This document shows positions 1,409 to 11,600 of a stretch of DNA of 36,264 bases, in pieces. The position numbers were made by a program, and so were the translations under genes. Position 1 is the stretch's first letter, and each line of letters starts with the position of its first letter. Under the pieces are notes generated by a model that did no database searches, was not told the origin of the DNA, and saw nothing but the letters and a program-made list of their open reading frames with translations. The stretch spans positions 1-36,264 of the forward strand of contig JADGEZ010000022.1 of assembly GCA_016744115.1 (NCBI GenBank), given 5' to 3'. This DNA is from Sulfurimonas sp. Its GTDB lineage: Bacteria > Campylobacterota > Campylobacteria > Campylobacterales > Sulfurimonadaceae.

Positions 1409-1676
1409 TAAGTAAGAGGGCATAAATAGTTTCATAACAAACATCATTTAAAAGGTTTAGATTCAAGGCAAACTTTATTTGGCGATACTAGTATCGTTGA
1501 ATGAAGTTTAACGCAGGAGATGAGCCTTTTAAGTGATGCCCTACGGGTAAGAAGATAAGACACAATCTACTTCGTTAAAATCCCTTGAAGCTACTAGTAG
1601 CTCCTACGGAATTTCGCCTTGTATCTCGTATCTTCTCTTCTTATTTGTTATGAAATTATTTATGCCCTCTTACTTA
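1409..1676 (+). mobile_element. 268-bp folded MITE-like element, copy 1
   Basis: This fills most of the 1360-1692 gap. The ends are about 32-bp inverted repeats (TAAGTAAGAGGGCATAAAT... against ...ATTTATGCCCTCTTACTTA). Inside are two arms. Arm 1 (about 1442-1535) has CATCATTTAAAAGG pairing with its complement, and a hairpin capped by GATACTAGTATC at 1484-1495. Arm 2 (about 1545-1645) is capped by GCTACTAGTAGC at 1590-1601. The whole can fold as a three-way junction. No ORF of note is inside. Copy 2 lies at 10449-10718 and a lone right end at 3514-3548. If the ends are AGTAA...TTACT, both full copies are flanked by TA, as expected of Tc1/IS630-type insertion, but TA may equally belong to the inverted repeat. 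It could be a non-autonomous transposon, a structured RNA, or both. Confidence 0.75.
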
Positions 1677-3456: not shown

Positions 3457-3579
3457 ATGAAAGATGATACATATATTGTTTTATATGCTGATGAATTTAA
3501 AATTGATGTTTGGATTAGATATGAAGTTATTTATGCCCTATTACTTAACAAGTACGAGGAGACCAATAATTTACCCTAG
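3457..3579 (+). CDS. Short ORF running into a repeat end and an attC site
   Basis: This 40-codon ORF starts MKDDTYIVLYADEFKIDVWI and is preceded by AAGGAAGG with 6-nt spacing, a strong ribosome site. Its second half is translated from the right end of the folded element and from the first half of the attC site, and it stops at TAG inside the attC loop. It therefore looks like the start of a cassette gene whose remainder was replaced by repeat sequence. It resembles no family I know. It may be translated, but probably as a relic. Confidence 0.35.
   Translation: MKDDTYIVLYADEFKIDVWIRYEVIYALLLNKYEETNNLP
3514..3548 (+). repeat. Isolated right end of the folded element (copy 3)
   Basis: The 35 bp ending TTTATGCCCTATTACTTAA match the right terminus of copy 2 (10684-10718) with one difference. 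The left half and both arms are absent. The repeat runs directly into the R'' box of the attC site at 3543, sharing the bases ACTTAA, so the two elements meet exactly at their ends. Confidence 0.8.
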
Positions 3580-10448: not shown

Positions 10449-10718
10449 TTAAGTAATAGGGCATAAATAACTTCATAGCTAACATCATTTAAAAGGTTTA
10501 GTTTCAAGGCGAATTTGACTTGGCGATACTAGTATCGTTAAGTTAAGTTCAACGAAGAAGATAATCCTTTTAAATGATGCCCATAGGGTGAAAAGATACA
10601 CTACAATCTAGTGCGTTAAAAGTTCTTAAAGCTACTAGTAGCTCCTGCGAACTTTCGCCTTGTACCTTGCAGTGTATCTTTTCATTAGCTATGAAGTTAT
10701 TTATGCCCTATTACTTAA
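10449..10718 (+). mobile_element. Folded MITE-like element, copy 2
   Basis: This 270-bp copy has the same plan as the one at 1409-1676: inverted ends (TTAAGTAATAGGGCATAAAT... against ...ATTTATGCCCTATTACTTAA) and two arms capped by GATACTAGTATC (10525-10536) and GCTACTAGTAGC (10631-10642). Differences from copy 1 occur on both sides of stems. Copy 1 TAAGAGGG/CCCTCTTA is TAATAGGG/CCCTATTA here, and copy 1 ATAACAAA/TTTGTTAT is ATAGCTAA/TTAGCTAT here. It lies in the same orientation as copy 1. Its right end contains the last codons and stop of lpxK. Confidence 0.8.
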
Positions 10719-11600
10719 GTAATTGTCTAATCTTTCTCCAATCTCAACATGTAAATCAAGCAAGGATAAAGGAAGTCCAAAAGATTCTATTTTGACATAA
10801 TCTTTATAGGTTACTAAGAGTGAATCTGATCTATCTTTTAGGAGTATTTTTTCTAACTCCTGTTTTGTAAATGTGTGATGATCTTCAAAGTAATTTTTAC
10901 TTATAACTTTAGGTAAATATTTATCAAGTCTTTGTGGTCTTGCGATTGCAGTTACTAATGACATTTTTTTAGTTTTATTTTTAAGTTCCACTATTCTTGT
11001 AAAATCTATCCCCTCTTCAACCGTAAGTACCTCTTTATCTGCCCAAAGTCTTTCTCTAAAAGCACCAGATGGCAGGCAAGATTTATTTTTTATCTTTACA
11101 TTTATGAGTATATCTAGTTTTTTTATATCATGTTTTGAATAAGCATCATCTAAAAAAACAATTTTTGCTCCCATCTCCTTAGCTTTTAATATTCCTTTTT
11201 TTCTATCTTCACTTACTATTACTATGGCTGAGGAGAGTTTTTTTGCGTATATCATAGCTTCATCACCACTTACGGATATATCAAATAAAATTTTTTTTGT
11301 ATCTTTAATAACATAAAGACCCCTGCTCTCCCTTCCGTATCCACGAAGGACTATAGCAACATTTTCATATCTTAAAGCTAAAGCACATACTAACGGTGTT
11401 TTACCACTTCCTCCGACATTAAGGTTACCTATTCCTATAATATTTATACCAAAATCTTGGGCTGTCTTACTTTTAAAGAGTAGATACATAACAAAACAGT
11501 AAAGCCAAGAAAGAGGTAAAAGAAAAAAAGAGATTATTTTTTGTATAAAATTTGGATTGTAGAAATATTCTTCAACCCAAAAGACTAGAGATTTTTTCAA
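10701..11600 (-). CDS. lpxK: Tetraacyldisaccharide 4'-kinase LpxK
   Basis: LpxK phosphorylates the 4' position of the lipid A disaccharide at the inner membrane. The 299-residue protein begins with the amphipathic/membrane N-terminus (FYNPNFIQKIISFFLLPLSW) and carries the P-loop GNLNVGGSGKTP (about residues 58-69). Also seen are VAIVLRGYGRESRG, VIVSEDRKKG and IVFLDDAYSKHDI, which carries the catalytic Asp-Asp region. The start is TTG at 11600; no ATG lies near the conserved N-terminus. The last residues SNRA and the stop are encoded inside the folded element (10701-10718), so the natural C-terminus has been replaced or trimmed. The neighbouring aminotransferase ends 13 bp upstream, so the two are probably one operon. 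Confidence 0.92.
   Translation of the reverse strand: MKKSLVFWVEEYFYNPNFIQKIISFFLLPLSWLYCFVMYLLFKSKTAQDFGINIIGIGNLNVGGSGKTPLVCALALRYENVAIVLRGYGRESRGLYVIKDTKKILFDISVSGDEAMIYAKKLSSAIVIVSEDRKKGILKAKEMGAKIVFLDDAYSKHDIKKLDILINVKIKNKSCLPSGAFRERLWADKEVLTVEEGIDFTRIVELKNKTKKMSLVTAIARPQRLDKYLPKVISKNYFEDHHTFTKQELEKILLKDRSDSLLVTYKDYVKIESFGLPLSLLDLHVEIGERLDNYLSNRA

Follow-up and report, generated by a model that had tools for sequence, protein, structure and literature searches.

Miniature transposons usually have conserved ends and a free middle, and the attC site of integrons is a folded single strand that is recognized by the integrase within a cassette array. Unlike attC sites in their arrays, the copies of the element analyzed here are dispersed. 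The RUP element of Streptococcus pneumoniae is about 107 bp long. RUP, ERIC, YPAL and Correia (Delihas 2007, PMC2229807) are MITEs whose anatomy our element shares. Mobilization of RUP by IS630-Spn1 has been proposed, and RUP is likewise short, gene-less and dispersed, with TA at its ends and IS630-like terminal repeats; it differs in that its description in the part of PMC2229807 consulted reports no two-arm core kept across genera or under the ends of different IS families. ERIC, YPAL and Correia/NEMIS are also palindromic dispersed MITEs with stable stem-loops predicted in their transcripts, and ERIC and Correia have TA at their termini (PMC2229807); in our element the terminal repeats are replaced outright, and what persists throughout an order is the core fold with its loop bases and its length. 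CIR of Caulobacter and Brucella similarly forms a long stem-loop from each of its 5′ and 3′ sections, but is described as having no terminal inverted repeats (PMC2229807). REPIN/BIME elements with RAYT (Y1) share with it the two inverted imperfect hairpins (PMC2817692); our element differs in having no Y1 partner gene, DDE-type ends and a length of 268 bp. No earlier description of an element with a conserved two-arm core was found in the open-access literature.

The window, the whole 36,264-nucleotide stretch of Sulfurimonas sp. DNA that was analyzed, contains two complete copies of the element and a solitary terminal repeat (Table 1). A sequence-only reading had described copy 1 as a three-way-junction element with paired changes between copies. 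The 268-bp element is real, has exactly the coordinates given there and has a second complete copy, the paired outer-stem differences are present in the sequence, and both arms end in the same palindrome, TACTAGTA (GATACTAGTATC, GCTACTAGTAGC). The folded junction was retained and its helix count was revised, since four helices (outer stem, arm A, mini-hairpin and arm B) describe it better. Folding of copy 1 with DNA parameters gave -56.6 kcal/mol, compared with -22.6 ± 3.5 for shuffled sequences (z = -9.8). The core plan is two inward-facing hairpin arms around a CCCnnnGGG mini-hairpin; arm B is related to arm A in inverted orientation, and the core consists of a single structured hairpin in inverted duplicate, set round the mini-hairpin. 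Because the loop of the mini-hairpin was found both as TTC or TAC and as the complements GAA or GTA, the argument that a UUCG tetraloop proves an RNA was rejected.

Table 1. Features of the element copies and the solitary repeat in the window. E values are from R2, the general covariance model of the arm, whose sequence set included the L001 arms.
Feature	Coordinates	Strand	Details
Complete element, copy 1	1409-1676	.	268 bp, terminal TA on both sides included; divergent copy; site empty in three relatives
Left terminal inverted repeat / outer stem, copy 1	1409-1441	+	First two bases TA; pairs with 1644-1676
Right terminal inverted repeat, copy 1	1644-1676	-	Last two bases TA
Arm A, copy 1	1442-1538	+	Inward strand is plus; R2 match 1448-1532 (+), E = 2.3e-17
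Arm A conserved bases, copy 1	AAGGC 1465-1469; AACG 1510-1513	+	
Central mini-hairpin CCCTACGGG, copy 1	1539-1547	.	Alignment helix 5, never varies
Arm B, copy 1	1548-1643	-	Inward strand is minus; R2 match 1554-1637 (-), E = 1.3e-20
Arm B conserved bases, copy 1	1616-1620; 1573-1576		AAGGC is the complement of 1616-1620, AACG that of 1573-1576
Solitary terminal repeat (remnant)	3514-3547	-	Same family as the window copies; terminal-repeat matches
Complete element, copy 2	10450-10717	.	268 bp, TA at each end; young-family member
Arm A, copy 2	10483-10579	+	R2 match 10489-10573 (+), E = 4e-17
Mini-hairpin CCCATAGGG, copy 2	10580-10588		
Arm B, copy 2	10589-10684	-	R2 match 10595-10678 (-), E = 2.5e-18

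In the 2.05-Mb genome that contains the window, a search recovered about 15 copies of full length, along with several partial copies and numerous shorter fragments. All full copies start with TAAGT and finish with ACTTA, and their flanks are unrelated, which is the dispersal expected of a bacterial MITE; neither window copy contains an ORF of at least 80 amino acids, as expected of a gene-less MITE. Copy 1 is the divergent member, with about 82% identity to the others, and copy 2 is one of a young family whose members are about 97% identical and lie in both orientations. The terminal-repeat pattern had 91 matches in the genome, compared with 0 for the reversed pattern. About half of the 91 are solitary (for example L110:517, L121:619, L122:675, L124:713, L129:705 and the one in the window), and several of these read TAAGTAATAGGGCATAAATAACTTA, a fusion of left and right ends at the direct repeat ACTT, as would result if slippage had removed the hairpin. 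Within the right terminal repeat of copy 2, at 10701-10717, an LpxK gene (10701-11600, minus strand) has its last residues and its stop codon. Elsewhere in the genome, a direct repeat AACAAGCTCCTCTAATTTTCTCA... flanks a stretch that holds an IS630 remnant and copy L006 (L137 1101-1160 and 2967-3030).

Empty target sites, which the sequence-only reading had suggested looking for, were found for copy 1. Its flanks, when joined, matched three relatives contiguously across the junction with small gaps only, and copy 1 is therefore an insertion of about 266 bp. None of these three relatives has TA as the junction dinucleotide (it is TT or CA wherever the alignment is clear), a difference that later change could account for; because TA flanks both sides of all copies in their own genome, we infer that TA is the target and is duplicated. 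The terminal repeats of close relatives of the element match IS630-family ends: in G195, IS630 ends (TA followed by AGTGCCTAACCAAAATTAATGTCATATT) correspond to MITE ends (TA followed by AGTGACTGACCATAATAAATATCATATT) of the same genome, and the IS630 ends of G137 (TA followed by AGTACCTATCCAAAAATAAAACCAATTAA) to AGTACCTATCCAAAAATAAAATCAATTAA of the G039 element. Ends in common with an autonomous IS, as expected of a MITE, were found for relatives (IS630, and an IS5-type for a sister family). For the window copies' full repeat AGTAAKAGGGC (AGTAATAGGGC) no autonomous IS was found, related ends only, and their genome has only an IS630 remnant; the IS630-family transposons with which close relatives of the element have their ends in common are of the DDE_3 type and come from the same genus. 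The element is a MITE by anatomy, with TA ends, terminal inverted repeats, no genes and dispersed copies, and the earlier proposal of a DNA-transposition substrate, going beyond an inverted repeat, is upheld by the empty sites, the TA at both ends and the repeats related to IS630 ends. We consider it probable (roughly 80%) that it is a non-autonomous DNA transposon with a conserved two-arm core, moved in trans.

The window genome also carries a second set of elements, 265-270 bp long, with ends TAGACTTCTTGCAAAACTC. These ends bound another repeat with a different interior, which breaks contigs in this genome; in relatives, the TAGACTTCTTGCAAAACTC-ended repeat encodes pieces of HTH_Tnp_4 and DDE_Tnp_4, that is, an IS5-type transposase, and the window genome contains no assembled copy of this interior. 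Many contigs (C1, C13, C16, C21, C27, C34, C56, C61, C64, C68, C73) end, judged by their first 100 bases, approximately 80-100 bases inside TAGACTTCTTGCAAAACTC-ended repeats, which are either the IS5-type transposon or its MITE. When R2, which had been built without the second set, was applied to it as a held-out test, the arms of the TAGACTTCTTGCAAAACTC set were detected with E values down to 3e-13. Within a single genome, one and the same core is thus bounded by ends of two transposase families. R2 had zero matches in the IS loci, no autonomous IS630 bearing the arm was found, and an autonomous IS for the TAACTGA..TTACGCA end was absent from 30 loci. Pattern searches of plasmid and phage collections and of IMG/VR gave no match. 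The element differs from known MITEs in that an order-wide conservation of core fold, loop bases and length goes together with changing ends, and in that those ends belong to different transposase families.

Among 200 genomes of the family, 65 had a match, which in many cases covered no more than a 57-bp piece of arm B. When 20 such places were fetched, nearly all proved to contain a complete element, 260-271 nt long and built to the same plan, with unrelated stems and minimum free energies of about -103 to -144 kcal/mol. The covariance model of arm B extended to further families of the order, again mostly to complete elements, two of which are GC-rich, and with R2 the arm was detected in 28 of the 68 sampled genera of the phylum (74 of 397 genomes). 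That copies are nested in one genome with random changes is thereby refuted. Chance, or an ordinary inverted repeat of a single genome, is hardly credible: the AT-rich composition alone speaks for it, against the fold z-score of -9.8, the 91 terminal-repeat matches versus 0 for the reversed pattern and the 74 genomes with the arm.

Lengths of 104 elements ranged from 258 to 291 nt (81 between 265 and 274), and some ten kinds of ends were found (AGTnnn, CCAAATCC, GACTTCTTGC, ACTGACCTTACGC, ATCACCGCACC, TTGAGACC and others). In relatives across one order, the four-stem fold and length are kept and nearly every stem base is altered in matched pairs. In all modelled arms, aligned with the few second-type arms omitted, the inward strand carries AAGGC...AACG within internal loops, and the helices between them vary. 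In the second arm type, TGAGATTRTG...GCAAGATCGC replaces AAGGC...AACG, and such an arm is paired with a usual one (L168 left, L199 left, L204 right, L197 right, L241 left). Shorter elements with the same ends, about 129-184 bp, also occur (L217:1359-1519; L244, L245, L255); the one at L217 has one arm, and the arm is therefore a module. Elements with TACCAAATCC-type ends (L164-L167, L173, L174, L181, L183) have an outward TTGGTATAAT-like, promoter-like -10 box at the border, and at L198 a lone arm lies immediately upstream of a tRNA gene.

The sequence-only reading had called for a covariation test on more copies, and in 47 sequences (alignment A1) covariation was far above background. Of the 85 predicted pairs, 73 had compensated changes; when cells were counted on the given structure, 94.0% were paired compared with 69.0% after shuffling, 890 cells were altered on both sides compared with 228, and the covariation score was 0.638 compared with 0.176 (0.10-0.16 with partners slid by 1-3 columns). 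Because the A1 sequences share ancestry and the same alignment yielded the structure, these numbers are not probabilities. The covariation is overwhelming, with three or four Watson-Crick types at single pairs.

In young copies, stem substitutions were compensated in 2 of 42 cells (family 1) and 4 of 37 (the other family). Compensation is thus so rare that, once a copy has inserted, there is no sign of selection in place or of fast palindrome correction, and the fold would therefore be kept in the transposing lineage rather than in place: it seems to be maintained in copies that keep transposing, which points more towards a role in the spread of the element than towards a host function. The same counts bear on a neutral MITE with a functionless core, in which template switching or gene conversion within palindromes, together with co-varying terminal repeats, would account for the paired changes. 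The few paired changes in young copies and the covariation of the outer stem with no strand preference (below) fit such an account, and the fixed fold could in part reflect neutral palindrome correction. However, nearly all stem changes in young copies are uncorrected, so that this correction must be slow, the arms retain their length and the internal-loop bases AAGGC and AACG amid the turnover of the stems, and their wobble pairs are asymmetric; we regard the neutral account as unlikely.

Wobble pairs of the outer stem had no strand preference (one strand versus the other 20:24; G.T 50 versus A.C 69; 15:20). This symmetry is expected of terminal repeats recognized as duplex DNA and gives a single-strand role of this stem no support; its paired changes are accounted for by terminal repeats changing together. 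In the arms of 86 elements, isolated wobble pairs were G.T on the inward strand (5′ to 3′ from the nearer end) in 192 cases versus 48. The inward strand was preferred in 65 elements versus 7 and in 16 sequence clusters versus 5 (p = 0.027), an asymmetry that is strong in the main cluster and modest over independent clusters. It explains why arm 1 was read earlier as having only G-U-compatible mismatches on the plus strand, which was confirmed, and arm 2 as less clean: arm 2 is related to arm 1 in inverted orientation, and its mismatches are therefore G-U-compatible mainly on the minus strand. A single functional strand for the whole element was rejected, as plus and minus minimum free energies do not differ over the relatives and the arms have opposite wobble polarity. 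The earlier suggestion of a selected single-strand structure accordingly holds for the arms, with their strand-specific wobble, AAGGC...AACG loops and covarying helices, and fails for the outer stem. Constant loop bases between freely covarying helices indicate that what is recognized is a folded single strand, whether RNA or ssDNA, rather than a duplex.

One possibility is that the element carries a structured regulatory RNA from place to place: in transcripts that come in from either side, the first arm would fold and serve neighbouring genes as a terminator, leader or processing site. Copy 1 has a promoter-like TATAGTACAAT on one side and a gene start, at 1693, on the other, none of 72 elements falls within a long ORF, wobble favours the inward strand, and the conserved loops are purine-rich on that strand. 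By crude ORF calls there was no bias towards convergent genes (9 convergent, 29 divergent, 34 tandem). We find this reading doubtful: Rfam, searched at gathering and loose thresholds, gave no credible family and no score above a gathering threshold, no conserved neighbour gene was seen, and the uncompensated changes in resident copies argue against a host function kept in place. Transposition as ssDNA by a Y1/HUH enzyme, as in REP/REPIN or IS200/IS605, would account for the strand-specific arms and for the inverted pair of imperfect hairpins known from REPINs, but is very improbable given the empty sites and the perfect terminal inverted repeats with TA, which are similar to DDE transposon ends. 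A Y1/REP transposase was also rejected as partner, as the genome has just two weak, distant Y1 (PF01797) matches, neither beside an element.

For a MITE with a two-arm core moved in trans, the following course can be proposed. IS630 (DDE_3) and IS5-type (DDE_Tnp_4) transposases would move the element by cut-and-paste into TA. One strand would become single, either as RNA read in from either side or as DNA at a fork or after excision, and the arm nearest its 5′ end would be the wobble-optimized, sense one, so that the element could work in either orientation. The fold would be selected in copies that go on transposing and not in resident copies. The step served may be survival or mobility of the element, and our guesses include single-strand folding, end pairing or a harmless structured leader in transcripts. 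More tentatively, the folded core of approximately 260 nt may be a unit of selection of its own, an ancient hitch-hiker that swaps ends according to the DDE transposase available (IS630, IS5-type or others) and whose arms, as folded RNA or ssDNA, act in proliferation.

The usual pattern of miniature transposons is reversed here: throughout an order of bacteria it is the folded middle that persists and the ends that are replaced. If mobility depends on the arms, Tc1/mariner-like or IS5-like transposition would have an unrecognized requirement; should the arms work as RNA, a structured RNA family would be spread by transposons. The arm model gives a direct handle on these alternatives, with helices that can be broken and restored and a wobble polarity that predicts the relevant strand. 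If the core is indeed the unit of selection, it would be a mobile structured nucleic acid of a kind so far undescribed.
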